Source: a virus
Strand: one strand, 5' to 3'
IMG/VR virus record: IMGVR_UViG_3300025652_007521
Location: 1 to 62,810 of that record
Length of the DNA: 62,810 bases
Shown piece after piece: positions 3-59,635 of the stretch. The stretch's first letter is position 1, and each line of letters opens with the position of its first letter. Made by a program: the position numbers and the translations under genes. Under the pieces are notes generated by a model. It made no database searches, had not been told where the DNA came from, and was given only the letters and a program-made list of their open reading frames with translations.

Positions 3-92
3 GATCAAGATAGTGCGTTTAATCAATCTTATAGTTTAACTCAAAACTGTTTAAACCCTAACGGTTGTTCAATATCGGTATTACAGCAATGA
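3..92 (+). CDS. 3' end of an unknown upstream gene (partial)
   Basis: An open frame enters from the left edge and ends with TGA at 90-92. Only about 29 C-terminal residues are visible, ending SISVLQQ, and they match no family I recognise. The stop overlaps the ATG of the cyclase gene in an ATGA arrangement (89-92). This suggests the two genes are co-transcribed and translationally coupled. It is too short to assign a function. In bacteria CHASE2-cyclase genes often sit beside FecR-type or other sensor genes, but nothing visible here tests that. Confidence 0.5.
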   Translation, partial: DQDSAFNQSYSLTQNCLNPNGCSISVLQQ

Positions 93-1930
93 AATATATA
101 ACTTCCATTTGGTTTACATTTATAATCGTAGCATGTTTAATCGGTTTAAGAGTTAATGACTCTAATATAATACAAGAGTTAAGGTTAACAGTCTTTGATC
201 AATATATTAAATCGATACCTTTAAAAGAATCAAACGATATAGTGTTACTTAATATATCAGAAGAGTCATTAGGTTCATTAGGTCAGTATCCATTCCCTCG
301 CCAAACATATGCTCAAATGATATCTGATCTGCGTAACGCTAATGCTGGTATGATTGCATTCACTATGATGTTTCCAGAAGAAGATAGATTCGGGGGTGAT
401 GAAGTGTTCGCCTCGTGGATTAAAGACAATGGTATTATATTATCGCAAGATGCTGATCCTTCTGGTAGAAGTACAAGTGCACCTTATGTCGGCACTGCTA
501 TCTTTGGTAGAGGTGATCCACTTGATTGGGTTATTAAATACGATGGTCTTGTCACTAATATACCATCACTAGAAGAAGGTGCGTGGGGTCATGGTTTAAT
601 TAACGGCATGCCAGAAGTCGATGGTGTGGTACGAAGAATACCTTTGATCTCTCAAATAAACGATCAGTTATATCCATCACTCGCACTTGAAACAATAAGA
701 GTCATGAATGGTAAACCATCTTATACTGTAAAGGTAAATGAAATAGGTATCGAAGAAATTATATTAAGGCCATTTAGAATACCAACAGATGCGAATGGTT
801 CTATGTGGATCAATCCTAATTATAAGTTTACGGAAATAGACTACGTGTCCAATGTATCTCTACCTGATCTGAAAGGTCGTACTGTTCTGGTGGGGCTAAC
901 GGCCAAAGGTCTAGCTGCTCAGATTCCAACGTCAACTGGATTGCGTTCTGCTCATCAATTGCAAGCTGCTTCAATTTCCACCTTAATGGCGCAAGAAACT
1001 CTTCGTCGTCCCGTGTGGGCGGATCTTCTGGAGATTGTGGGAATGGCAGTTGGAGCTGTACTTCTTCTACTTGCCGTATATTATAGTCCGGTATGGTTTT
1101 CTGGTTCATTATTTGTTGTTCTCACATCATCATTAACTTATGGTTATTGGTATATATGGACAGAGAATAGTATATTATTATCACCACTCTGTTCTATAGT
1201 ATTATTTATAATCACATTTATGAGTGCTTCATTTAATAACTTCTATAAACAGTTTGTTTTACGTCAACAAATTAAGAAGCAGTTTGGTACATATCTATCA
1301 CCTGATATGGTGAATGCATTGCAGAAGGATCCATCGCTATTAAAGCTTGGTGGTGATCGTAAGGAGATGACATTCCTCTTTATGGATATATGTGGCTTCA
1401 CCCCCATATCAGAACACTATAAAAATAACGATGATCCAGAAGGATTGGTTGAATTGGTCAATGAGTTCCTTGATGCGATGACAAAGATTATATTAGCAAA
1501 TGGTGGTACAATCGATAAGTATATGGGTGATTGTATTATGGCGTTTTGGAATGCACCATTAGATTGTCCTAATCACGCTGATATGGCAGTTAAATCAGCA
1601 AGAGAGATAGAAGCTAAAACAAACGAATTAAAAGAAGTTTATAAGGAACGTGGACTACCTGATATAAACGTCGGCACTGGTATTAATACGGGTGATTGCA
1701 TTGTAGGTAATATGGGTAGTGAATCAAGGTTCGATTACTCAGTTATCGGTGATGCTGTAAACCTTGCAGCAAGATTAGAGGCGACAGCAGCTCGCCATGA
1801 ATATAAAGAGTATAAGACTATCATATCGTCCTATACTCGAGATCAATTAGAAGACCCAGATTCTTGCCCAGAAATAGGCAAGATCCATGTAAAAGGTAAG
1901 GAAGAAGAGATAACTATTTACGGGACGTGA
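89..1930 (+). CDS. CHASE2-domain membrane adenylate cyclase (class III)
   Basis: Predicted to make cAMP from ATP at the inner membrane. I see an N-terminal membrane segment (about residues 3-22), an extracytoplasmic CHASE2 sensor (about 25-305), three membrane segments (about 312-378) and a cytoplasmic class III cyclase domain (about 420-613). Catalytic residues are intact: metal-binding Asp433 (FLFMDICGFT) and Asp481, adenine-selecting Lys477 (IDKYMGD), and transition-state Asn558 and Arg562 (VNLAARLE). The second purine-selecting position is Ser551 rather than Asp, as in class IIIb adenylate cyclases. I chose the ATG at 89 because it overlaps the upstream stop (ATGA) and directly begins the first membrane segment; a TTG at 65 would add 8 residues. 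No promoter is visible in the window, so it is probably transcribed from upstream. A full-length sensor cyclase is very unusual in a phage. Confidence 0.9.
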   Translation: MKYITSIWFTFIIVACLIGLRVNDSNIIQELRLTVFDQYIKSIPLKESNDIVLLNISEESLGSLGQYPFPRQTYAQMISDLRNANAGMIAFTMMFPEEDRFGGDEVFASWIKDNGIILSQDADPSGRSTSAPYVGTAIFGRGDPLDWVIKYDGLVTNIPSLEEGAWGHGLINGMPEVDGVVRRIPLISQINDQLYPSLALETIRVMNGKPSYTVKVNEIGIEEIILRPFRIPTDANGSMWINPNYKFTEIDYVSNVSLPDLKGRTVLVGLTAKGLAAQIPTSTGLRSAHQLQAASISTLMAQETLRRPVWADLLEIVGMAVGAVLLLLAVYYSPVWFSGSLFVVLTSSLTYGYWYIWTENSILLSPLCSIVLFIITFMSASFNNFYKQFVLRQQIKKQFGTYLSPDMVNALQKDPSLLKLGGDRKEMTFLFMDICGFTPISEHYKNNDDPEGLVELVNEFLDAMTKIILANGGTIDKYMGDCIMAFWNAPLDCPNHADMAVKSAREIEAKTNELKEVYKERGLPDINVGTGINTGDCIVGNMGSESRFDYSVIGDAVNLAARLEATAARHEYKEYKTIISSYTRDQLEDPDSCPEIGKIHVKGKEEEITIYGT

Positions 1931-1950
1931 CCAATTATTTAGTTTTGGTC
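1929..1950 (+). other. Hairpin at the end of the cyclase gene
   Basis: GACCAA (1929-1934) and TTGGTC (1945-1950) form a 6-bp stem that starts inside the cyclase stop codon. There is no T-tract after it, so it is not a standard intrinsic terminator. It may act as an mRNA 3'-end stabiliser, or be chance. Confidence 0.3.
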
Positions 1951-1961
1951 TCACTTAAAGG

Positions 1962-1990
1962 TGTACAAACGTGCTTATATGTAGTATAAT
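1962..1990 (+). promoter_or_regulatory. Sigma70-like promoter P1
   Basis: The -35 element is TGTACA (1962-1967), the spacer is 17 nt, and the -10 element is a perfect TATAAT (1985-1990). It drives the 2020-2843 genes. The downstream gene has a strong AAAGGAG Shine-Dalgarno before ATG 2020. Confidence 0.75.
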
Positions 1991-2019
1991 AGCTATATAA
2001 ATTAATCAAAGGAGACATT

Positions 2020-2433
2020 ATGCTTATTCATGTTACAGGTTCTACCAAAGACAAAAGAGCTCTGGCGCAAAAAACCGTAGCATGGTCTATTAAAAAGCTT
2101 GGCCTTAATAGAATGTCTTCTTTAAGTATTGATGTCATATTACGTAAAATGAAAAAAGATGAGTACGGTTACTGTAATATTATCGAAAGCAACAGAAGCT
2201 TTATTATCGATGTGAATAAAAACGTTTCACTAAAAGATTTTGTTTCAACCATTATTCACGAAATGGTACATGTAAAACAATTTGCAAGGAATGAAATGAG
2301 TGCATACGGCATGCGTTGGAAAACAAAAACCGTTTCAGAAAATACAAAGTATGTAGATCTTCCGTGGGAAAAAGAAGCTTACAAACTTGAAGCAAAACTA
2401 ATTGAATTAATTTGGAAAGAGAATATATTATGA
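2020..2433 (+). CDS. Zincin-type metalloprotease-like protein
   Basis: 137 aa. A metal-binding HExxH motif is visible as His80-Glu81-Met-Val-His84, preceded by a hydrophobic strand or helix. A downstream Trp-Glu-Lys-Glu-Ala segment (about residues 119-123) could supply the third zinc ligand, as in small gluzincins such as SprT- or DUF955-like proteins. The substrate is unknown; phage proteins of this type could act on host regulators or on virion precursors. It is the first gene after promoter P1, has a strong Shine-Dalgarno (AAAGGAG), and overlaps the next gene by an ATGA. The fold assignment rests on the motif alone. Confidence 0.6.
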   Translation: MLIHVTGSTKDKRALAQKTVAWSIKKLGLNRMSSLSIDVILRKMKKDEYGYCNIIESNRSFIIDVNKNVSLKDFVSTIIHEMVHVKQFARNEMSAYGMRWKTKTVSENTKYVDLPWEKEAYKLEAKLIELIWKENIL

Positions 2434-2636
2434 ACCCAGTATACAATGACTTTATATCAGATCGCATTAAGAATGCACTTGTCGAATCATCAGTTGATGA
2501 TGCAATTATCCATGATGTAAGTGGTCCTCACATGGACTTGGATCCTGAAGAAGGCTTCCTTGTATCATTAAAGCGTACCATTAAGGTTATGGACGAAAAC
2601 GGAAACACTTACAAAATCACTATTGAGAAGGACTAA
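2430..2636 (+). CDS. Small acidic phage protein, unknown function
   Basis: 68 aa, acidic, with a C-terminal stretch of alternating hydrophobic and charged residues (VSLKRTIKVMDENGNTYKI) that looks like a beta-hairpin. The start was set at ATG 2430 because it overlaps the preceding stop as ATGA, implying translational coupling to the zincin-like gene. A TTG at 2412 in the same frame would add six residues but lacks support. I do not recognise the family. Confidence 0.65.
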   Translation: MNPVYNDFISDRIKNALVESSVDDAIIHDVSGPHMDLDPEEGFLVSLKRTIKVMDENGNTYKITIEKD

Positions 2637-2639
2637 ATT

Positions 2640-2843
2640 ATGTTAGTATATAGAACAAACATTATTACCGATGAAGTTAAGTCAATGGACTTACCAGTAA
2701 CTCAAAAGCAACTTGATATATACGAGAATACAAACACTCTCGTTCAAGATGTTTTTCCTGATCTAACTGCAGACCAACGCGAGTTTCTTATTTCCGGAAT
2801 GACACCTAATGATTTTACTTTACTATGTGAAGATAATTTTTAA
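2640..2843 (+). CDS. Small conserved phage protein with a DQREFLISG motif
   Basis: 67 aa. The core (LPVTQKQLDIYE, then VQDVFPDLTADQREFLISGMTPNDF) resembles a small protein found in many tailed phages, with a pattern like PVT..QL..W....LIQ..FP.L...EREFLISG.TP.E. No function is established for that family as far as I know. The gene starts three bases after the preceding stop and is the last of the P1-driven trio. An independent promoter (P2) follows it. Confidence 0.7.
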   Translation: MLVYRTNIITDEVKSMDLPVTQKQLDIYENTNTLVQDVFPDLTADQREFLISGMTPNDFTLLCEDNF

Positions 2844-2862
2844 AAATAATTGTAAAAAACTG

Positions 2863-2891
2863 TTTACATTGCTTTAAAACTGTGTTATAAT
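2863..2891 (+). promoter_or_regulatory. Sigma70-like promoter P2, extended -10
   Basis: TTTACA (2863-2868), a 17-nt spacer, then TATAAT (2886-2891) with the extended -10 TGT at 2883-2885. About 30 nt from the -35 through the -10 is nearly identical to promoter P3 at 3488-3516. The spacer contains a TTGCTTTA string like a T4 MotA box, but it lies closer to the -10 than in T4 middle promoters. Confidence 0.85.
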
Positions 2892-2919
2892 ACACATTAT
2901 ATTATACAAGGATTACATT

Positions 2920-3186
2920 ATGACAAAACCTCTTACTCAAGCTCAACGTTTACGTATGATCAAAAAAGCTCACAAAAATGTTGTGAAGAAACAAAAAGTC
3001 TCTGAACGTAAAGCGCTCCAAGAAACACGAGCTCTCACTAAAGCTGTTAAAAAGGCTGGTCAACATGCACCAAAAAATCTTGATGCGTTTAGCGAAGAAA
3101 GCATGTATTACAGTGACAAGGAAGTAAACGATTACATTAAAGGATCTTCGATATACGAATCATATCAATCTATGCAGGACGAATGA
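2920..3186 (+). CDS. Small basic protein, unknown function
   Basis: 88 aa. The N-terminal 55 residues are strongly basic and helical (many Lys/Arg, including KKAHKNVVKKQKVSERK), which could bind nucleic acid or a host protein. The C-terminal third is acidic with several Tyr and Ser. It has its own promoter (P2) and an AAGGA Shine-Dalgarno. The family is not recognised. Its early-type promoter suggests a role in takeover or regulation, but that is inference. Confidence 0.6.
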   Translation: MTKPLTQAQRLRMIKKAHKNVVKKQKVSERKALQETRALTKAVKKAGQHAPKNLDAFSEESMYYSDKEVNDYIKGSSIYESYQSMQDE

Positions 3187-3187
3187 T

Positions 3188-3484
3188 ATGATGTATACTA
3201 ATTCATTGCGTTATGACATACATGGTCGTAAGCGTAAATCAAAGGCACTTAATACTACTAAAAAGTATAAGCCAGAATTTAAGCCAATGGAAGTAAAGTC
3301 AGTACATCCATCTTATGAGGATAGACAAGAATATAAGTCTGCTCCTCTTACGCCACCTCAAAATACCGTACAGGATGATTCTTATAAAAAAGAAATCTCA
3401 GCGCAATATACTGTATCAATTGCTTTTAACAAAGGTGCGTATCAAGTAGTTCCAAACAGCGATATTAAACACATTGGAAAATAA
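3188..3484 (+). CDS. Small protein, unknown function
   Basis: 98 aa, hydrophilic, Lys/Tyr/Pro-rich and probably partly disordered. The start could be ATG 3188 or ATG 3191; both lie just after the stop of the upstream gene, with which it forms an operon from P2. The C-terminal 35 residues (SAQYTVSIAFNKGAYQVVPNSDIKHIGK) look like a small folded beta unit. I do not recognise the family. Promoter P3 starts immediately after its stop codon. Confidence 0.6.
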   Translation: MMYTNSLRYDIHGRKRKSKALNTTKKYKPEFKPMEVKSVHPSYEDRQEYKSAPLTPPQNTVQDDSYKKEISAQYTVSIAFNKGAYQVVPNSDIKHIGK

Positions 3485-3487
3485 TTG

Positions 3488-3516
3488 TTTACATTACTTT
3501 AAAAGTATGATATAAT
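3488..3516 (+). promoter_or_regulatory. Sigma70-like promoter P3, extended -10
   Basis: TTTACA (3488-3493), a 17-nt spacer, then TATAAT (3511-3516) with extended -10 TGA (3508-3510). It closely matches P2 across the whole element. It drives the 391-aa gene and probably gp33, the nucleotidyltransferase and gp59, because those genes overlap or nearly abut. Confidence 0.85.
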
Positions 3517-3540
3517 ATAGTTATTATATAGGAGACAGAT

Positions 3541-4716
3541 ATGTCAGTACAATTAGATAAGCAACGTGCCAAAGGCAGAAAGAATCGAACATCAATTGAA
3601 AGTCAATACCTTGGTCCAATGCCAGTCTTTGATGCAACCACCACCCCCGATCTAGATAAAGATTACAATGGCTATTGGAATGCGTGGAGTAAAGCTGCAA
3701 ACTGGTTTAATTACAAGTTCAGTGGTAAAGACTTTAAAGCGTATGCTATTAGTTATGCAACTGAATATCTAAAAGTTTCCAAAGATGATCTACGTAACTT
3801 AAAGAAAGTTAAAGATGATAAGTTCCTACCAGTCTCTAAGCTAACTGCTATTCACTTTACTGGTTTTAATTATCACTCTGATGAACGTACTCTTATTGAA
3901 AACTCTATTAAAGCTCTTATTGATATCGGTAAACAAATTGCAGAAGAAGTTGTAGAAGATACGGCTGAACCTAAGGTAGTTATATCGATTCAAGATCGTA
4001 TGCGTACTAAAATGATGGAAACACTCTATGCTGAGTTTGATGAAACTGTTATTGAACCTTGGCTTGATGATAATTTCTCTTCTACGTTTGACGCATTCAA
4101 TGCGATTAAGCGACATGGTATTAAAGGTCCTGGTGTTAAAATGTTTGCTGATCAGGTAAAGCCATTGTATGATGAATTAAATGATGCATACAATAAAGAC
4201 TGTGAACAAGCTGTGGAAGGTTATTCACATTGGTCAAGACCACAACTAAAGAAAGCCATCAAGCAACTCGAAACAGTTTTATCTGATATCGAAAAAACTC
4301 AAATGGCAAATAAGGCTGTACGTAAGACACGTGCTATTAAACCTAAAGCATCTGATAAGCAAGTAGCTAAGCTTAATTATCTTAAAGATGATAATGCTAG
4401 TAAGCTAGCGTCCATCAGTCCTATTCAGATCCCAGGCGCTAAGGTCTTATATGTCTATAACGTTAAGCAAAAGAAGCTTACAGAGTTCGTTACAGATAAC
4501 TCTGCAGGGTTTATGGTATCAGGTTCAACACTTAAAAACTTTGATACTACATTGAGTAGATCATGTGGCCTTCGAAAGCCTGATGATATACTACCACAGA
4601 TTCTTAAGAAGACTCAGAAGCAGATTGATAATGTCTTTAAGGGACTCACCACGAAGGTCAGTGTTCCAGCTGGTCGAATCAACAAGGATTGTATATTACT
4701 GAGGGTTATGAATTGA
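3541..4716 (+). CDS. Conserved-looking 391-aa phage protein, unknown function
   Basis: A soluble, mostly helical, charged protein with no signal peptide or membrane segment. Residues 20-120 contain aromatic patches (YWNAWSKAANWFNYKFSGKDFKAY). A central helical region is followed by a Lys-rich linker (about 255-285) and a C-terminal beta-rich domain (about 300-391) with the segment PGAKVLYVYNVKQKKL. It has a good Shine-Dalgarno (GGAGA) and its own promoter P3. It heads an apparent operon with gp33, the nucleotidyltransferase and gp59, which suggests a link to replication or late transcription. I cannot assign a function. Confidence 0.75.
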   Translation: MSVQLDKQRAKGRKNRTSIESQYLGPMPVFDATTTPDLDKDYNGYWNAWSKAANWFNYKFSGKDFKAYAISYATEYLKVSKDDLRNLKKVKDDKFLPVSKLTAIHFTGFNYHSDERTLIENSIKALIDIGKQIAEEVVEDTAEPKVVISIQDRMRTKMMETLYAEFDETVIEPWLDDNFSSTFDAFNAIKRHGIKGPGVKMFADQVKPLYDELNDAYNKDCEQAVEGYSHWSRPQLKKAIKQLETVLSDIEKTQMANKAVRKTRAIKPKASDKQVAKLNYLKDDNASKLASISPIQIPGAKVLYVYNVKQKKLTEFVTDNSAGFMVSGSTLKNFDTTLSRSCGLRKPDDILPQILKKTQKQIDNVFKGLTTKVSVPAGRINKDCILLRVMN

Positions 4717-4955
4717 GTGAATTAGAAGATTATAAAATCATGACAAAGAAACGATTCTCTGCTGCAGTTGAATCAATTGTTATAACTAAACGGCTAAGTT
4801 ATATTGATGCTATTACAGACTTAGCTGAAGAAAGAATGATGGACTATGCAAATGTAAAAAGGTTACTATCAGACTCCATTAAACAAAAGCTTGAAGTAGA
4901 AGCAGCTGAATTAAGATTAATAAAAGTAGAAACAGGAAATAAGTTACCATTATGA
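4713..4955 (+). CDS. 33: Late-transcription co-activator gp33
   Basis: T4 gp33 bridges host RNA polymerase and the sliding clamp to activate late promoters. This protein has the family core (FSAAVESIVITKRLSYIDAI, then a run ending VEAAELRL) and a hydrophobic C-terminus (GNKLPL) like the clamp-binding tail of T4 gp33 (LDFLL). The TTG at 4713 is my preferred start: it overlaps the upstream TGA and has GAGG eight bases upstream. ATG 4740 would give a 71-residue core protein, and an earlier TTG at 4689 lies well inside the upstream gene. Its presence fits the many TATAAATA late promoters in this window. Confidence 0.75.
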   Translation: MSELEDYKIMTKKRFSAAVESIVITKRLSYIDAITDLAEERMMDYANVKRLLSDSIKQKLEVEAAELRLIKVETGNKLPL

Positions 4956-5365
4956 AAGTAGGATTTACTTGTAGTACATTTGATTTATTACATGCTGGTC
5001 ATGTACAAATGTTACGTGAAGCAAAAAACCATTGTGATTACTTATTGGTAGGATTACAAGTAGATCCTAGTCTTGATAGAAAAGAAAAGAATCAACCTGT
5101 ACAAACCATTATTGAACGCTATACACAACTCAAAGCAGTCGGTTATGTAGACGAGATTATTCCATACGGAACAGAGCAAGACCTTGAAGATATATTATCA
5201 ATGTATGCTATTAATGTTCGTATACTAGGTGAAGAGTATCGTGATAAAGATTTTACCGGTAAGGATATATGTCGTAAGCGTGATATTGATTTGTACTTTA
5301 ATAAACGAGATCATCGGTTTAGTTCAAGTGATCTTAGAAACAGAGTATGTACCAAAACTATTTAA
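4952..5365 (+). CDS. TagD-like nucleotidyltransferase (cytidylyltransferase family)
   Basis: 137 aa, a complete single-domain member of the HxGH nucleotidyltransferase family. It has the N-terminal GFTCSTFDLLHAGHVQML motif that binds the nucleotide triphosphate, and a C-terminal FSSSDLRNRV corresponding to the family STT/S-x-x-R motif. Homologues such as glycerol-3-phosphate cytidylyltransferase (TagD) activate a phosphorylated small molecule with CTP. The substrate here is unknown. It overlaps gp33 by ATGA and precedes gp59, so it is embedded in the replication operon. It could make an activated precursor for DNA, glycan or lipid modification; this is inference. Confidence 0.85.
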   Translation: MKVGFTCSTFDLLHAGHVQMLREAKNHCDYLLVGLQVDPSLDRKEKNQPVQTIIERYTQLKAVGYVDEIIPYGTEQDLEDILSMYAINVRILGEEYRDKDFTGKDICRKRDIDLYFNKRDHRFSSSDLRNRVCTKTI

Positions 5366-5387
5366 TTAAACAACAAAGGAAACAACA

Positions 5388-5645
5388 ATGAGTATTATTA
5401 TTCCATCATCACCCGCAGATCGTAAGACCATTAAAGATGCAATGACTGAAATTTCTAATTCAATGGTTCGTATCGAAGGTGAAAAAGCTTTTATCAAAGA
5501 AGCAATTGAAGAACTAAATGATAAAGTTGATATCGATAAGAAGTATCTAAATAAGCTGGCTCGAGTATATCATAAACAAACTCTTGCTCAAGCCACTGCA
5601 GAAATGGAAGACCTAGAAGCACTATATGAGTCTTGCCTTAAGTAA
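5388..5645 (+). CDS. Small helical protein, unknown function
   Basis: 85 aa, almost wholly helical with heptad-like spacing of hydrophobics (NSMVRIEGEKAFIKEAIEEL), so a coiled coil is likely. An AAAGGA Shine-Dalgarno precedes ATG 5388. It lies directly upstream of gp59, with one base between its stop and my chosen gp59 start. In some T4-like phages small helical proteins sit here, but I cannot name a family. A role tied to replication or late transcription is inferred only from position. Confidence 0.65.
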   Translation: MSIIIPSSPADRKTIKDAMTEISNSMVRIEGEKAFIKEAIEELNDKVDIDKKYLNKLARVYHKQTLAQATAEMEDLEALYESCLK

Positions 5646-5646
5646 A

Positions 5647-6234
5647 ATGGATCCATTCGAGTCTTATAAACTGTATAACGCATTAAAGCTACATTTTGAA
5701 ACAGATGGGTATGATGCTGTTAAGTACCGTTATAAGACTCGGGTGAATCCTCAATCTTTCTTTAAACGTAGAGACAAGTATTTCTTTGCTAAGCTGGGTA
5801 AGACATACGGTAAAGATCTTGTTAAGTATTATGTGTCTAACTTTATAAAGGATGTAGGATATGTAGGTGATATGCTAGGTCCTGATGGAGAAGCTAACTA
5901 TAATGATATGATGAAGGTACATGAATCTTTATCGTATAGGTTTAAAAATGATATAAATATATTATCATCAATGGTCAACTCATTTGATGAATTGCTAGAG
6001 TGTCAAGATAACGAATACCCAGTAGTTATTAAAGCATTCATGCAAGAAGAAATTTGTTTAGAAACTGTGGTCATACTAAATAAACTCACAAGGTTTATTG
6101 ATAGGGCAGATAAACAAATAACCGAGACTATCATGTGGCCTGATATCTCACGTAAAGTTCATAAATACGATCCATACGTTTCGATTGACCGAGACAAAAT
6201 GAAAAAGATTGTAATGAAGTCCTTTACAAATTAG
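5647..6234 (+). CDS. 59: Replicative helicase loader gp59
   Basis: T4 gp59 loads helicase gp41 onto gp32-coated forks. The match is clear through the N-terminal half: a MDPFESYKLYNALKLHF start, then KYRYKTRVNPQSFFKRRDKYFFAKL, which parallels the T4 gp59 segment containing QKRRDKYFFQKL. The C-terminal helical half (FMQEEICLETVVILNKLTRFID) also parallels T4. I set the start at ATG 5647, just after the upstream stop; an in-frame ATG at 5626 would overlap the previous gene and add seven residues. Length (195 aa) is close to T4 gp59 (217 aa). It sits immediately before its partner gp32. Confidence 0.9.
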   Translation: MDPFESYKLYNALKLHFETDGYDAVKYRYKTRVNPQSFFKRRDKYFFAKLGKTYGKDLVKYYVSNFIKDVGYVGDMLGPDGEANYNDMMKVHESLSYRFKNDINILSSMVNSFDELLECQDNEYPVVIKAFMQEEICLETVVILNKLTRFIDRADKQITETIMWPDISRKVHKYDPYVSIDRDKMKKIVMKSFTN

Positions 6235-6251
6235 TGATAATGTGTTATAAT
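6223..6251 (+). promoter_or_regulatory. Sigma70-like promoter P4 for gp32
   Basis: TTTACA (6223-6228), a 17-nt spacer, then TATAAT (6246-6251) with extended -10 TGT (6243-6245). The -35 lies inside the last codons of gp59. The predicted leader of about 58 nt is A-rich with no obvious pseudoknot, unlike the autoregulatory leader of T4 gene 32. Confidence 0.85.
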
Positions 6252-6315
6252 ATAATCTATATTATGTATAAAGTGGATAATTCAGACAATACAAAACATA
6301 CATCGGAGAAAAAAT

Positions 6316-7209
6316 ATGTCTTTAAGTAATTTAAAATCTAGTCGTGGCTCGTCCATTGACAAACTCGTTCAAGCAGCAGAAGCTGTATCTCAAAAAGCAG
6401 AAACAAAATCATACGGTGATGACCGTTTTTGGAAACCCTCACGCGATAAAGCTGGTAATGGCTATGCAGTAGTTCGTTTCCTTCCGCCTAAGGAAGGTGA
6501 AGATCTACCGTGGGCTCGTTATTGGGATCATGGTTTTCAAGGTCCAACCGGTATGTGGTATATCGAAAACTCATTGACTTCTATTGGACAGGATGATCCA
6601 GTTTCAGAAGCAAACACCATTCTATGGAATAGTGGTCGAGATGAAGATAAAGCACTTGCTCGTGAACGTAAGCGTCGTTTACATTATGTTTCAAATATCC
6701 TTGTTATCTCGGATCCTTCTAACCCAGAGAATGAAGGTAAAGTATTCCTTTATAAGTTTGGTAAGAAAATCTTTGATAAGATTATGGATGTAATGCAACC
6801 TCAATTCCAAGATGAAGATCCTGTCAACCCTTATGATTTCTGGGAAGGTGCTGACTTTAAGATTAAGATTCGTAAGGTTGAAGGTTGGGTTAACTACGAC
6901 AAGTCAGAGTTTGGTTCTCAGTCTGCTCTATTTAATTCGGATGAAGATAAACTAGAAGAAGTATATTCTAAGGTTCATTCTTTAACTGATTTTACTAAGC
7001 CTGAAAACTATAAGTCTTATGCAGAATTGAAAGCTAAGTTCAATAAGGTTCTAGGTGTAGAAGCTGGTCCTATTGCTGCAGAACCTGTAGTAGCTCAATC
7101 GGTTGCTGAACCAGTCATGGCTGCTGAATCTGCTCCGGTAGGTAATACAGCTGAAGCTGAAGAAGATGATACTCTTAGCTACTTTGCTAAGCTAGCTCAA
7201 GAGAGTTAA
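6316..7209 (+). CDS. 32: Single-stranded DNA-binding protein gp32
   Basis: 297 aa, close to T4 gp32 (301 aa). It coats ssDNA at forks and recombination intermediates and recruits gp59. Recognisable landmarks are the core (HGFQGPTGMWYIEN, then NILVISDPSNPENEGKVFLY with the T4-like PENEGKVF), the NYDKSEF loop, and an acidic C-terminal tail (about residues 275-297). Unlike T4, the zinc-site cysteines are missing; the protein contains no cysteine at all. GGAG lies seven bases before ATG. It has its own promoter P4 and is followed by a structured 3' region and a strong terminator, so it can be expressed as a single abundant transcript. Confidence 0.95.
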   Translation: MSLSNLKSSRGSSIDKLVQAAEAVSQKAETKSYGDDRFWKPSRDKAGNGYAVVRFLPPKEGEDLPWARYWDHGFQGPTGMWYIENSLTSIGQDDPVSEANTILWNSGRDEDKALARERKRRLHYVSNILVISDPSNPENEGKVFLYKFGKKIFDKIMDVMQPQFQDEDPVNPYDFWEGADFKIKIRKVEGWVNYDKSEFGSQSALFNSDEDKLEEVYSKVHSLTDFTKPENYKSYAELKAKFNKVLGVEAGPIAAEPVVAQSVAEPVMAAESAPVGNTAEAEEDDTLSYFAKLAQES

Positions 7210-7282
7210 ACACCGTAGTAAAACCTACGGGCCAATAAGAAGTATGGGCTTTGCGTCTAACATTGGAACCATACCACCCTTT
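7210..7282 (+). ncRNA. Structured 3' untranslated region of gp32
   Basis: Two hairpins precede the terminator: CCGTAG/CTACGG with a six-base loop (7213-7230), and GTATGG (7242-7247) pairing with CCATAC (7269-7274). With the terminator this gives a roughly 100-nt RNA of three stem-loops. It could stabilise gp32 mRNA or be released as a small RNA. Only the inverted repeats are seen; the function is inferred. Confidence 0.35.
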
Positions 7283-7310
7283 AAAGGAGTCCTTCGGGGC
7301 TCCTTTTTTT
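7283..7310 (+). terminator. Intrinsic terminator after gp32
   Basis: A 10-bp stem (7283-7292 with 7297-7306, one T-G wobble) closed by a TTCG tetraloop and ending in a run of seven or more T. A textbook rho-independent terminator. Confidence 0.95.
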
Positions 7311-7397
7311 ATATATAATATAGAGTGGTCATCTTTATCGACTCGCATAGGTTCATGCGTCAAAACGAATCGTATAATCCGAACAAGGAGAATTACG

Positions 7398-7457
7398 ATG
7401 AAAGAACTAGTATATATCTATCGTGGTGTAAAATACGTAAAGCAAGTAAAAGCGTAA
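7398..7457 (+). CDS. 19-residue micro-ORF resembling the start of DUF4278
   Basis: The product is MKELVYIYRGVKYVKQVKA. The pattern YRGVKY is the hallmark of DUF4278 micro-domains found in cyanobacteria and their phages. AAGGAG lies seven bases before the ATG, an excellent ribosome site. It stands alone between two intrinsic terminators, with a possible TATAAT at 7373-7378 but no convincing -35. It would be the shortest protein in the window. The isolated position and strong ribosome site argue that it is translated; the function is unknown. Confidence 0.5.
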   Translation: MKELVYIYRGVKYVKQVKA

Positions 7458-7465
7458 ACCAAACC

Positions 7466-7492
7466 GAGGACTCGCAATGGGTCCTCTTTTTT
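7466..7492 (+). terminator. Intrinsic terminator after the micro-ORF
   Basis: An 8-bp stem with GAGGAC (7466-7471) pairing GTCCTC (7481-7486), plus an inner T-G wobble and a C-G pair, followed by a T-run at 7487-7493. It lies just before the first late promoter and so separates the early/middle block from the late block. Confidence 0.9.
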
Positions 7493-7495
7493 TAT

Positions 7496-7503
7496 TATAA
7501 ATA
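7496..7503 (+). promoter_or_regulatory. T4-type late promoter for gp4
   Basis: A perfect TATAAATA. Using the T4 rule that this box spans -13 to -6, transcription would start at 7509, which is the A of the gp4 start codon. Confidence 0.8.
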
Positions 7504-7508
7504 ATGTT

Positions 7509-7976
7509 ATGGCTTATTCAGGTAGATACAAAATAAAAAAACCAGAAAAATATGTAGGTGATCCAAGTAAAGTTACGTATAGATCTTTATGGGAACGACA
7601 AGCATTTAAATGGTGTGAGAATAATTCGAAGGTTGTTGCTTGGAACTCTGAAGAAGTTGTTGTGCCATACAAATATAAAGTCGATAAAAAGTATCATCGT
7701 TATTTTGTAGATCTACTTATTAAAATGGATAATGGTGATATCATACTTATAGAAATCAAACCAAAGAAAGAAACAGCCCCTCCTAAAAAACCTGCACGTC
7801 AGACTAAAAGATATATTAATGAGGTAACTACTTATATTAAAAATACTGATAAATGGAATGCTGCACAGAAATATGCAGAAGATCGTGGTTGGAAGTTTGA
7901 AGTCTGGACTGAAGATACTCTTAAAAGTCTTGGAATAAAATTAGTCGGTGGTCCTATAAAGAAGAAGAAAAAGTAG
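7509..7976 (+). CDS. 4: Head completion protein gp4 (head-closure nuclease-like)
   Basis: T4 gp4 (also called gp50/65) is needed to finish DNA-filled heads before tail joining. The 155-aa protein matches from its first residues: MAYSGRYKIKKPEKYVGDP with the T4-like TYRSLWE, then VPYKYKVDKKYHRYFVDLLIK and an IEIKPKKETAPPKKP segment almost identical to T4 (IEIKPKKETQPPVKP). The FVD and IEIKPK residues resemble a PD-(D/E)xK nuclease core. There is no Shine-Dalgarno before the start, and the late promoter is only five bases upstream. The start is secure because MAYSG is conserved. Confidence 0.93.
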   Translation: MAYSGRYKIKKPEKYVGDPSKVTYRSLWERQAFKWCENNSKVVAWNSEEVVVPYKYKVDKKYHRYFVDLLIKMDNGDIILIEIKPKKETAPPKKPARQTKRYINEVTTYIKNTDKWNAAQKYAEDRGWKFEVWTEDTLKSLGIKLVGGPIKKKKK

Positions 7977-8046
7977 TATACCTCTATCCTCCGGGGTAAC
8001 TATATTATTATAACACACTTTCGTGTAAAAGTACACTATTTTTGGA

Positions 8047-8054
8047 TATAAATA
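8047..8054 (+). promoter_or_regulatory. T4-type late promoter
   Basis: A perfect TATAAATA. The predicted start of transcription, 8060, is again the first base of the ATG of the next gene. Confidence 0.8.
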
Positions 8055-8059
8055 AAGGT

Positions 8060-8653
8060 ATGGCAAGTCTATTTGATACACTACAAGCACAGGCTTTTAG
8101 AGCTGGCATTAAAACGAGAACAGATCAATCTAAGAATTGGTTTCGTAAAAATGTCGCTAAACTAGGTGATGTAGATCGTCGTAGTCTTTTAAAAGATGAT
8201 GCACTTGATCCTACAACAAAAGAAATAGCTGGTAACATGTACATGTACTTTTATGATCCAAAGCATAAAGCTACACTACCATATTATGATCGGTTCCCAT
8301 TAATTATTATGGTTGAGCCAGCTGAAGGTGGTTTCTATGGATTAAATTTACATTACCTAGCACCAGGTGTAAGAGCAAGATTTTTAGATGAGTTAATGAA
8401 GACTGCACCGAAAAAAGTTGGTGAAAATTCTCGTCTTACAAAGATGCGATATGATTTGTTAAAAGGTGTAAAAAAATATAAAGAGTTTCAACCTTGTTTT
8501 AAACATTATTTAACAAGTCAAATAAAAGGTAGAATGGTAAGAGTTCCGATGACTGAATGGGAAATCGCAATCTTTTTACCAACAGAACAATTTAAGAAAG
8601 TTAAAGCGGAAACTGTTTGGAGATATTCTCGCAAACAATATACAGGTAAATAA
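8060..8653 (+). CDS. T4-like virion-assembly protein, possibly gp2/gp3-type
   Basis: 197 aa. Recognisable features are a basic N-terminus, MYMYFYDPKHKATLPYYDRFPLI and the GGFYGLNLHYLAPGVRARFLDEL segment, which I associate with a conserved protein of marine T4-like phages sometimes labelled DNA end protector. In T4, gene 2 neighbours gene 4, which fits the position here, but the residue-level match to T4 gp2 is not something I can confirm. The start was placed at ATG 8060 (MASLF); a TTG at 8042 would put the late promoter inside the gene. It is followed three bases later by the tube-like gene. Confidence 0.55.
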   Translation: MASLFDTLQAQAFRAGIKTRTDQSKNWFRKNVAKLGDVDRRSLLKDDALDPTTKEIAGNMYMYFYDPKHKATLPYYDRFPLIIMVEPAEGGFYGLNLHYLAPGVRARFLDELMKTAPKKVGENSRLTKMRYDLLKGVKKYKEFQPCFKHYLTSQIKGRMVRVPMTEWEIAIFLPTEQFKKVKAETVWRYSRKQYTGK

Positions 8654-8655
8654 GA

Positions 8656-9363
8656 ATGGCAAAATCAATCGACGATTTTAAAGCAATTGTTACTAAGAGA
8701 CAAGGTCTTGCAAAGACCAATCGCTTTTTGACAATTTTTACTCCACCTACTCAATCGTTAATTAATTTAAACCCACTTGATATTGTTGGTCGTATTGCCA
8801 ACGAAACTTTTAATGCTAGGAGTTTAATAAACGATCCAAGAGATATTGCGTTTCTTACTGAATCAGCAACATTACCTGGTCGTAGTCTTAATACCCTAGA
8901 TTTTTCTGCAGAAAAAGAAACATTAAAATTACCTAATGGATTTATTGATGATGATGTCACAATGACGTTTTATTTAACAAACGATTATTATATGAAAGAT
9001 ATGATGGAGACTTGGATGTCATCAATTGTTGATACAGAAAAATATCAATTAGGTTATAAAAAGAATTATCAAACAGATATTGTAATACAGCAATTAAATA
9101 CCTTTGATAAAAATATATACGGTGTTAAATTAATTAACGCGTATCCAATATCAATAGGAGCACTTGCTCTAAACAACGAATCTGAGAATGCATTTCAAAG
9201 ATTACAAGTTACATTTGCATACGATAGATATGTACCACAAAATTTTATAGATTCATCTATATCTGGCGCAATATCAGCATTACCGAATGAAGTGAAAAGA
9301 TTATTACCAGATAAAATGCAAAGCGGATTGAAAAATTTTACAACAGTTAGTTCATTATTTTAA
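8656..9363 (+). CDS. 54: Tail-tube-fold protein, probable tube initiator gp54
   Basis: 235 aa with the gp19/gp54 type layout. An N-terminal extension leads to an antiparallel core, with a LPGRSLNTLDF strand, MTFYLTNDYYMKDMMETWMS (helix after strand) and a final AFQRLQVTFAYDRYV strand that parallels T4 gp54 (TFDVTFAYRV). T4 gp54 sits on gp48 and nucleates tube polymerisation. It is smaller than T4 gp54 (320 aa). It lies directly before gp26 in a hub cluster, which supports gp54 over the major tube gp19, and a separate gp19 occurs later in the window. Confidence 0.65.
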   Translation: MAKSIDDFKAIVTKRQGLAKTNRFLTIFTPPTQSLINLNPLDIVGRIANETFNARSLINDPRDIAFLTESATLPGRSLNTLDFSAEKETLKLPNGFIDDDVTMTFYLTNDYYMKDMMETWMSSIVDTEKYQLGYKKNYQTDIVIQQLNTFDKNIYGVKLINAYPISIGALALNNESENAFQRLQVTFAYDRYVPQNFIDSSISGAISALPNEVKRLLPDKMQSGLKNFTTVSSLF

Positions 9364-9381
9364 TATTATTAGGAGAATATT

Positions 9382-10086
9382 ATGGCTTTACCAACGTTGA
9401 ATGCTGCGAAGTATAGAACAGTCATTCCATCACTAAATCAGGAAATTGAATATAGGCCTTATTTAGTAAAAGAAGAAAAGATTTTAATGATTGCAATGGA
9501 ATCAAAAGATCAAAGTCAAATACTTAGAGCTTTAAAAGATGTAATCAAAGCATGTGTATATGACGACATTAATGTAAATAAATTAGCAATGTTTGATTTA
9601 GAAGCATTATTTTTGCAATTAAGAGGAAAGTCTGTTGGTGAATCGACAGAAATAAAAATTAAATGTAAGCATTGTGAAGCTGAAAATCATAGGGAAATTA
9701 ATTTCGAAGACATTAATATGCCCGTTGTAACAAATAAGAATAATGTTATTGCTTTAACTGATGAAATAGGTGTAACATTAAGTTATCCATCAGTAGGTGG
9801 ATTAGAAAAGCAAGATCAAAAAGCAAGTAGTGTTGAGCAAGCTATGAATATGATTGTTGACTGCATTGAATCAATATATGATGCAAATGCAGTATATTCA
9901 GCAAAGGACGAAGGTACAAAGGCAGTAAAAGAATTTGTTGATTCTTTAAATAGTGCTCAGTTTAAGAAATTAACAGCGTACTTTGAAGAAATGCCGGCAG
10001 TAACTTATGATATGAATTTTGATTGTTCTTCTTGTGGTGAAACAAATGAGATGGAGTTAAGAGGCTTCGACAATTTTTTTGGTTAG
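9382..10086 (+). CDS. 26: Baseplate hub protein gp26 (zero-frame product)
   Basis: 234 aa, similar in layout to T4 gp26, a minor hub or assembly factor. It has two CxxC pairs (Cys95/Cys98 and Cys215/Cys218), likely forming a zinc ribbon around a helical insertion. It ends with an RGFDNFFG sequence encoded across seven consecutive T residues. An overlapping -1 frame continues into a gp51-like sequence, so gp26 and gp51 may be made as a frameshift pair. It is followed by gp51 and then the tape measure, the position of tail assembly chaperones in other phages. AGGAG precedes the ATG. Confidence 0.88.
   Translation: MALPTLNAAKYRTVIPSLNQEIEYRPYLVKEEKILMIAMESKDQSQILRALKDVIKACVYDDINVNKLAMFDLEALFLQLRGKSVGESTEIKIKCKHCEAENHREINFEDINMPVVTNKNNVIALTDEIGVTLSYPSVGGLEKQDQKASSVEQAMNMIVDCIESIYDANAVYSAKDEGTKAVKEFVDSLNSAQFKKLTAYFEEMPAVTYDMNFDCSSCGETNEMELRGFDNFFG
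10074..10080 (+). other. Candidate -1 ribosomal frameshift site (T-heptamer)
   Basis: Seven T residues read as AAT TTT TTT GGT in the gp26 frame, giving a slippery T TTT TTT. A -1 slip bypasses the TAG at 10084 and enters the gp51 frame as Trp-Leu-Gly-Leu-Ser-His. No clear downstream pseudoknot was found by eye. Confidence 0.6.
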
Positions 10087-10274
10087 GCCTCTCTCACGAT
10101 ACCTTATATAACCACTATAAGACCAACTTTGCGATGATGCAACACCATAATTATAGTCTCACGGAATTAGACAATATGATGCCGTGGGAACGTGAGATAT
10201 ATGTAGCGTTATTACAAGAACATATTAAAGAAGAAAATGAAAGACGTAAAGCAGAACAAGCGAGGAGTAAATAA
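10080..10274 (+). CDS. 51: gp51-like hub assembly factor, likely a gp26 frameshift extension
   Basis: The frame is open from before the gp26 stop to TAA 10272-10274. Its sequence resembles the short gp51 hub-assembly proteins of marine T4-like phages: SHDTLYNHYKTNF, MQHHNYSLTELDNM and PWEREIYVALLQEHIKEE. The first possible start codon is ATG 10134 (then 10137), giving only 46 aa, with no Shine-Dalgarno. The 18 codons before it, which also look protein-like, would be reached only by a -1 shift at 10074-10080. I list the range from the shift site; an independent start at 10134 is the alternative. The stop overlaps the next ATG (TAATG). Confidence 0.7.
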   Translation, partial: WLGLSHDTLYNHYKTNFAMMQHHNYSLTELDNMMPWEREIYVALLQEHIKEENERRKAEQARSK

Positions 10275-57621: not shown

Positions 57622-58047
57622 ATGTTTGATAAAAAAGATACACTAAAAAAATCATTAGAAAAAAATCTACCAGCTGAAACTAAACACGCTGAGGTAGATA
57701 AAGAGCTTACGTCTAAGAAAGATATAAATGATGATTATACTTTCTCAAGAGATACTTACAAAGAACTCATAAGTACAGGTATGGGATCACTAGATTCTCT
57801 TGCCGAAATTGCTCGTGAATCAGAACACCCCCGAGCATTTGAAGTATTATCAAAATCAATTAAAGACATTGGTGATGTAACTGATAAGCTGATGTCATTA
57901 CAAAAGAGTAAGCAAGACTTAGTAGGTAAAAAAGAAGAACAAAGTAAAGTAACTAATAATAATATGTTTATAGGTAGCACTACTGATTTACAGAGAATGC
58001 TCTTAGACACTGACGAAAAAGTGATTGATGGCGACATTAAAGAATAA
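57622..58047 (+). CDS. 16: Small terminase subunit gp16
   Basis: 141 aa (T4 gp16 is 164). Charged and helical, with the family central segment YKELISTGMGSLDSLAEIARESEHPRAFEVLS and a C-terminal VFIGSTxDLQ-like motif (NMFIGSTTDLQRML). gp16 recognises packaging substrate DNA and stimulates gp17. Its 3' end overlaps the gp17 start by 20 bases. Confidence 0.92.
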   Translation: MFDKKDTLKKSLEKNLPAETKHAEVDKELTSKKDINDDYTFSRDTYKELISTGMGSLDSLAEIARESEHPRAFEVLSKSIKDIGDVTDKLMSLQKSKQDLVGKKEEQSKVTNNNMFIGSTTDLQRMLLDTDEKVIDGDIKE

Positions 58048-59635
58048 TGAATTTGGTTATCTTGGAAATCCTAATGTAAAGAGAGACGGAGTCGAGGCTC
58101 AGTTTACACTTGAGGAAATCAAAGAATATAAAAAATGTATGCAGGATCCTGCGTACTTTGCAAAAACTTACGTTAAGATTATATCACTCGATGAAGGACT
58201 AGTTCCCTTTAATCTATATGATTATCAGGAAAAGATGTTTAATCATTTTAACGATAATCGATTTTCAATTGTATTGGCATGTCGTCAGTCTGGTAAATCG
58301 ATATCATCAGTAGCGTATCTACTGTGGTTTACAATCTTTAATCCGGAAAAGACTATTGCCATACTTGCAAACAAAGGTGCTACTGCAAGAGAGATGTTAG
58401 CTCGAGTTACTCTTATGTTAGAGAACTTACCATTCTTTTTGCAGCCAGGTTGTAAGGCATTAAACAAGGGTTCTATAGAATTTAGTAATAACTCAAAGAT
58501 TATTGCAGCTGCTACGTCTGGTAGTTCTATTCGTGGTCTATCGATTAACTTACTGTTTCTTGATGAGTTTGCTTTTATTGACAATGATGCTACATTCTAT
58601 ACATCAACGTACCCAGTAGTATCATCTGGTAAAGATACAAAGATTATTATTACTTCTACAGCAAATGGTATTGGTAATGTATACCATAAACTGTGGGAAG
58701 GAGCTGTCACAAAGACAAATGAGTTTAAACCTTTTCGTGTAGATTGGTGGGATGTTCCAGGGCGAGATGATAAGTGGAAAGAGCAAACAATTGCCAATAC
58801 TTCTCAGATACAGTTTGATCAGGAGTTTGGTAATACATTTCAGGGTAGAGGTAATAGCCTTATATCTGCAGAATGTTTACTTGCTCAAAAGGCTCAAGAT
58901 CCAATATATACACAAGAGAATACATATGTTTATGAAAGACCGATAGAAGGTCATAATTATATTATGTGTGTCGATGTTGCGAAAGGTAGAGGGCAAGATT
59001 ATTCAACCTTTAATATTATAGACACATCAGTCAATCCGTTTAAACAGGTTGCAACATTTAGAGATAATAATCTATCAGCATTATTATTTCCTGATATTAT
59101 ATACAAGTATGCTATGACATACAATGAAGCATATATCATTGTAGAATCAAACGATCAAGGTAGTGTTGTATGTAATGGTTTATATTATGATTTAGAATAC
59201 GAAAACTTATTTGTAGAATCAACTGTGAAAGCTGGTGCAATTGGTGCTACAATGACTAAACGTGTAAAACGTATCGGTTGTTCTACATTAAAGGATTTTG
59301 TTGAGCAAAAGAAATTGCATATTGTAGACGCAAACACAATTATGGAGATGAGTACATTCGAAGCAAGAGGTACATCGTTTCAAGCATCGGGTAGTAATCA
59401 TGATGACTTAGTAATGAACCTAGTCATGTTTGCATGGTTTGCTACAACGGATATATTTAATGGTATAACTGATATTGATATGAAGAATATGTTATACAAA
59501 GAGCAGCTGCAAGCGATACAAGATGATTTAATACCGTTTGGTTTTATAACAAGTGCAGCTGTAGACGAACCAGTAGTGGAAGTAGATAATACAGGGCAAC
59601 AATGGGTTGTCCAAGAGCCTATCTCGAAACTATAA
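58028..59635 (+). CDS. 17: Large terminase subunit gp17 (ATPase and nuclease)
   Basis: 535 aa (T4 gp17 is 610). Walker A is ACRQSGKS (Lys90), Walker B is LLFLDE (Asp179, Glu180). The RNase-H-like nuclease has its first acidic residue in CVDVAKGRGQDYSTF (Asp316), then VESNDQGS and SNHDDLVMNLVMFAW. All essential motor and nuclease motifs are intact, so it should pump and cut DNA by a headful-type mechanism. ATG 58028 was chosen; a TTG one codon upstream is the alternative. It overlaps gp16 by 20 bases. Confidence 0.97.
   Translation: MATLKNNEFGYLGNPNVKRDGVEAQFTLEEIKEYKKCMQDPAYFAKTYVKIISLDEGLVPFNLYDYQEKMFNHFNDNRFSIVLACRQSGKSISSVAYLLWFTIFNPEKTIAILANKGATAREMLARVTLMLENLPFFLQPGCKALNKGSIEFSNNSKIIAAATSGSSIRGLSINLLFLDEFAFIDNDATFYTSTYPVVSSGKDTKIIITSTANGIGNVYHKLWEGAVTKTNEFKPFRVDWWDVPGRDDKWKEQTIANTSQIQFDQEFGNTFQGRGNSLISAECLLAQKAQDPIYTQENTYVYERPIEGHNYIMCVDVAKGRGQDYSTFNIIDTSVNPFKQVATFRDNNLSALLFPDIIYKYAMTYNEAYIIVESNDQGSVVCNGLYYDLEYENLFVESTVKAGAIGATMTKRVKRIGCSTLKDFVEQKKLHIVDANTIMEMSTFEARGTSFQASGSNHDDLVMNLVMFAWFATTDIFNGITDIDMKNMLYKEQLQAIQDDLIPFGFITSAAVDEPVVEVDNTGQQWVVQEPISKL

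Follow-up and report, generated by a model that had tools for sequence, protein, structure and literature searches.

A predicted CHASE2-domain adenylate cyclase is the last gene of a curli-type secretion operon in marine T4-like phages

The window, by which we mean the whole 62,810-nt stretch analysed here, is a virus record of 62.8 kb flagged as linear, a form that often denotes a fragment. It opens on the plus strand with the 3′ end of a curlin-type gene (3..92), whose direct translation gives the end of a second fibre-subunit-like protein, terminating in ...SYSLTQNCLNPNGCSISVLQQ*, and the stop codon of this gene overlaps the start of the following one within an ATGA at 89-92. The following gene (89..1930, plus strand) is an intact open reading frame encoding a 613-aa CHASE2-domain class III cyclase, presumably an adenylate cyclase, as assigned from Pfam, an AF2 model and residue alignment. 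Specifically, Pfam places CHASE2 (PF05226, E=6e-39) at aa 13-325 (125..1063, plus strand) and Guanylate_cyc (E=3e-17) at aa 425-609 (1361..1915, plus strand), while the AF2 model (pLDDT 88) contains one N-terminal membrane helix (aa 7-23; 107..157, plus strand), a large CHASE2 domain, three further membrane helices that lead into the cyclase linker (aa 310-332, 335-360 and 367-399; 1016..1285, plus strand) and a class III domain. Membrane helices flank the CHASE2 region, which lies N-terminal to the catalytic domain, the arrangement of a CHASE2 receptor cyclase, and this 1 + 3 helix layout bears out the preliminary description of an intact cyclase with a full CHASE2 sensor and four membrane segments. 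By structure match, the nearest solved folds to the catalytic domain are P. aeruginosa CyaB and Spirulina CyaC (3r5g, 1wc1).

The catalytic domain contains the residues that define class III nucleotide cyclases, with metal-binding Asp433 and Asp481, substrate-specifying Lys477 and Ser551, and transition-state Asn558 and Arg562. All 82 phage homologues keep D433, K477, D481 and R562, and 81/82 keep N558; S551 likewise varies once, both exceptions being the phage Melnitz; the five residues named in the preliminary description were thus correct and conserved in 81-82 of 82 homologues, and its list had lacked only the second substrate-specifying position, Ser551. The adenylate class expects Lys plus Asp, Thr or Ser at the substrate-specifying pair, here K477 and S551, and position 551 is Ser or Thr in all 80 cellular relatives (Ser in 71/80); the presumed product is cAMP. 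The gene is under strong purifying selection, because dN/dS is ~0.03 against two close relatives (0.034 vs L002 and 0.028 vs L010). The Melnitz cyclase (L083, 10001-12049) has a divergent catalytic half with Asp at 551 and Ser at 558, on which basis its activity may differ, and a C-terminal extension resembling that of a bacterial cyclase described below (L084). We also observed that the cyclase genes of L025 and L027 are ~97-100% identical in DNA up to about residue 400 and 61-93% identical thereafter, with similar breaks in further pairs such as L021 vs L034, and that catalytic halves fall into at least two recurrent types (SPDMV...EATAA and DPRQV...EGQTR). From these alignments, catalytic halves look to have been swapped between phages by recombination.

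Downstream of the cyclase, Pfam and PHROG profiles identify plus-strand phage genes over 2020..7976, with matches to a gp33-like coactivator (4689-4955), homologues of gp59 (5626-6234) and gp32 (6316-7209), and a head closure gene (7509-7976), in agreement with the T4-like neighbourhood first proposed. Two relatives are colinear with the window across the junction between the cyclase and these genes at ~85-96% nucleotide identity, L002 over window positions 24-10190 and L010 over 631-5805. This colinearity rules out host contamination or a chimera at the 5′ end, the caveat attached to the original proposal, and with uniform GC along the window and the same gene in complete phage isolates we consider such an origin extremely improbable. 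The cyclase is a genuine gene of a marine T4-like phage. The nearest relative of the window tail sheath is that of Pelagibacter phage Mosig, at 51%. Elsewhere in the window, profile matches to the 536-aa terminase large subunit ORF (58025-59635) start well inside the models, so that its N-terminal portion may be encoded by another ORF upstream; the interval 21411-44818 holds three very long ORFs of 1520, 2269 and 3350 aa.

The cyclase had been thought rare in phages, and the database search proposed at the time finds it widespread instead. A viral scan with the window cyclase gave at least 600 matches, a PHROG family covers the protein over its full length, and the gene is present in the isolates HTVC008M (infecting SAR11) and Melnitz (infecting OM43), the HTVC008M protein (AGE60353) being 44% identical to the window cyclase over the full length. 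Across 50,697 phage records, the cyclase, FecR and close CsgG homologues co-occur in the same six, two of HTVC008M and four of Melnitz. Because Mosig infects the same SAR11 strain as HTVC008M and gave no match to cyclase, CsgG or FecR in this search, the curli/cyclase module is dispensable for infection.

The left edge of the window cuts the operon inside the curlin-type gene, and because of this cut the operon context was missed in the preliminary description. In L002, which is colinear with the truncated window, the curlin-type gene is complete (215 aa; 2643-3290, ending SYSLTQNCLNPSGCSISVTQQ) and the gene order is csgG, curlin, FecR, curlin, cyclase, a phage curli (type VIII secretion, T8SS) module that includes the cyclase. 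In HTVC008M and Melnitz, csgF precedes this set, and the cyclase is the last gene of a phage csgF-csgG-curlin-FecR-curlin-cyclase operon. FecR lies upstream of the cyclase in 51/51 viral loci with at least 3.5 kb of upstream sequence, and CsgG and CsgF in 46/46 loci with at least 6 kb, counts that describe this cyclase clade only and are biased towards the module, since loci were chosen by cyclase similarity. In six loci (L066, L067, L071, L076, L077 and L080), FecR itself directly overlaps the cyclase start. The curlin proteins were recognised by position and by repeat or tail pattern rather than by profile, neither L002 curlin protein matching the Pfam Curlin repeat model. Between the cyclase and the next gene lies a promoter-like match, TGTACA-17-TATAAT (1962..1990, plus strand), one of 8 such sites found against 10 expected by chance, which faintly suggests the cyclase as the final gene of the curli/cyclase unit. 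Weak CsgG-like matches (~28% identity), annotated as hypothetical, also occur in Brevundimonas jumbo phages of near 350 kb (H44-H46).

A conserved IxIxQ strand (hydrophobic-x-hydrophobic-x-Gln) closes nearly all FecR proteins of the module, a few residues from the C-terminus, and a strand of this type also terminates the module curlin proteins. Of 62 phage FecRs, 61 have the motif, as does the single cellular FecR linked to curli (L084), compared with 0/24 other cellular FecRs from CHASE2 cyclase loci and 60/1283 background ORFs, although the pattern was set after inspection of the data and these counts, taken over homologous FecRs, are not independent trials. Its glutamine, Gln366, is invariant in 30/30 sequences. 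A model of FecR at moderate confidence (pLDDT 70) comprises a signal helix and a PupR-like FecR region, joined through an acidic, disordered linker to a C-terminal beta domain that carries the tail strand; comparison of this C-terminal domain with curlin gave no structural match, only PupR-type anti-sigma domains being matched. The shared strand suggests that the FecR tail may contact the fibre or its export. Such a fibre-like tail would offer a concrete physical link from amyloid secretion to signalling by CHASE2.

Like the CHASE2 cyclases of Alphaproteobacteria, e.g. S. meliloti CyaD1, the window protein combines an N-terminal helix, a periplasmic CHASE2, three membrane helices and a class III domain, but it is only ~30-38% identical to them. 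Many of these alphaproteobacterial genes also adjoin FecR-domain genes. Among the 80 cellular loci with the most similar CHASE2 cyclases, 26 also contain a neighbouring FecR gene, so the FecR-cyclase pairing is older than the phage module. Curli genes are nearby in only one of these 80 loci, L084, a Caulobacteraceae MAG contig (GC 57%) that we judged bacterial from its GC and the look of its flanking ORFs and that has csgF-csgG-curlin-curlin-FecR-cyclase, in phage order. In the cyclase tree, 41 phage proteins cluster with L084 under full support, to the exclusion of 45 cellular sequences, and L084 branches at or near the base of this cluster. Further bacterial copies of the module were not found among 385 members of the class and 299 of the order. 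L084, itself a MAG, may represent the source type or an early capture, and its operon indicates that the combination of FecR, cyclase and curli is not purely a phage invention.

Three earlier reports deal with this system: Zaragoza-Solas et al. 2020 (PMC7029224), Buchholz et al. 2022 (PMC9004378) and Wittmers et al. 2022 (PMC9599517). The first reported CsgF and CsgG in pelagimyophages (PMC7029224). The third describes a T8SS cluster with FecR and an adenylate cyclase in pelagiphage podo- and myoviruses, with expression in metatranscriptomes and alphaproteobacterial affinity, and reports csgE, csgC and csgD as absent from pelagiphages (PMC9599517). The window operon shares its gene order, its cyclase family and its setting in marine T4-like phages with that cluster, as represented by HTVC008M, and operon and cyclase belong to the published curli module rather than being a one-off. 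The text consulted calls the cyclase AC, and CHASE2, the FecR tail and the lack of cAMP receivers in SAR11 do not appear in it (PMC9599517). New relative to this literature are the bacterial L084 operon, the IxIxQ tail of FecR, the absence of class I and III cyclases and CRP from 78 SAR11-order genomes and the apparent swaps of catalytic halves.

We propose that FecR informs CHASE2 of curli or envelope state and that CHASE2 in turn gates cAMP synthesis by the product of the last gene of the phage curli module, a reading to which we assign a probability of roughly 0.55. During infection, the phage would place a pore of CsgG and CsgF in the outer membrane and produce curlin-type fibre subunits (type VIII secretion), together with a periplasmic FecR-domain protein that shares its C-terminal strand with the subunits and is encoded beside the cyclase. 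FecR would then report curli secretion or assembly, or envelope state, to the periplasmic CHASE2, which would raise or lower cAMP synthesis in the infected cell. We infer both the FecR-to-CHASE2 coupling and the signal sensed. FecR/CHASE2 pairing has been described in a biofilm operon, and S. meliloti CyaD1 lacking CHASE2 makes cAMP constitutively (PMC5192318, PMC5498481, respectively). That biofilm operon, Burkholderia BiofilmReg, joins a periplasmic FecR-domain protein to a CHASE2 receptor, although there the CHASE2 protein is a histidine kinase and the described operon has no curli genes (PMC5192318). Among the roles suggested in the preliminary description, the sensing of envelope conditions fits the curli/FecR context and the periplasmic sensor. 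Its interpretation as a whole stands in part: the gene does belong to the phage, has all its catalytic residues and encodes a periplasmic sensor, whereas its rarity is not supported and, as set out below, a reset of catabolism is unlikely for SAR11 hosts and a counter to host defence is without positive support.

Alternatively, the module could act at lysis or egress, with the CsgGF pore serving as a gated secretin or pinholin and the cyclase helping with timing rather than with fibre control. Synteny and structure led one study to propose a lysis role for Melnitz CsgGF (PMC9004378), and the cyclase is always in a unit with CsgG and CsgF. A pore alone, however, needs neither fibre subunits nor a fibre-tailed FecR, and curlin-type genes do lie in the unit, even though none were found in Melnitz by that study (PMC9004378; compare PMC9599517), and we therefore regard this alternative as unlikely.

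We looked for a receiver of cAMP in SAR11, the host of the closest cultured phages. Two SAR11 genomes were recognised by 5/5 published 16S probes; the Melnitz tmRNA used as a probe for SAR11 genomes gave short weak matches only. Among 78 SAR11-order genomes, for which completeness was not given, none had a class I or class III cyclase or a Crp-type HTH over the cut-off. A cNMP-binding domain was present in 5/78, always in a long ORF, the only type of such domain found in these genomes. In the one case examined (L205, 919-3264), the ORF is a fusion of cNMP-binding and acyltransferase domains, and similar ORFs occur in four other SAR11-order genomes. A search of 15 phage records, a good number of which are fragments, found no phage-encoded cNMP-binding domain. 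Judged from these genomes, SAR11 appear to be without adenylate cyclases and CRP-type cAMP receptors.

These results bear on two further readings. The cAMP may not be read inside the cell at all, the cyclase instead draining ATP or its product passing out, conceivably via the CsgG pore, to act on other cells as a signal. The lack of a canonical receiver in SAR11-order genomes and the 15 phage records is consistent with this, as is the outer-membrane pore that the module makes, but cytoplasmic cAMP must first cross the inner membrane, and we think the idea decidedly unlikely. The cyclase might also raise host cAMP and reprogram catabolism through CRP, as first suggested, given that the class III enzyme is intact and that CRP pathways exist in many Proteobacteria. 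With no cAMP-CRP circuit detected in the 78 genomes, and cNMP-binding domains limited to the five long ORFs, such a reset is very doubtful for SAR11 hosts.

We consider slightly more doubtful still that the cyclic nucleotide disrupts a nucleotide-based defence (Pycsar, CBASS), or that the gene is itself a Pycsar-type cyclase. PADLOC PycC models match the catalytic domain (best 1.5e-24), and PycC and the window protein share a class III cyclase domain, but the matches span only that domain. Unlike PycC, the window cyclase is a receptor-type membrane protein with the purine-specifying Lys477, which is invariant. An adjacent cyclic-pyrimidine effector, as expected for Pycsar, was not found: PADLOC detected no effectors among the six downstream proteins, and the upstream neighbours are curli genes. 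The counter-defence role suggested in the preliminary description accordingly has no positive support.

More tentatively, we speculate that phages install a full system of amyloid-fibre secretion together with its own sensor linking envelope to cytoplasm, the fibre-tailed FecR and CHASE2 cyclase, in bacteria otherwise without cAMP signalling, giving a second-messenger circuit with an undescribed receiver that exists only in the infected cell; we see this as possible rather than probable. Should the enzyme prove active, these phages would introduce cAMP to an order in which its synthesis and its sensing both seem to be lacking, and any cAMP effect in infected SAR11 would then be phage-made.
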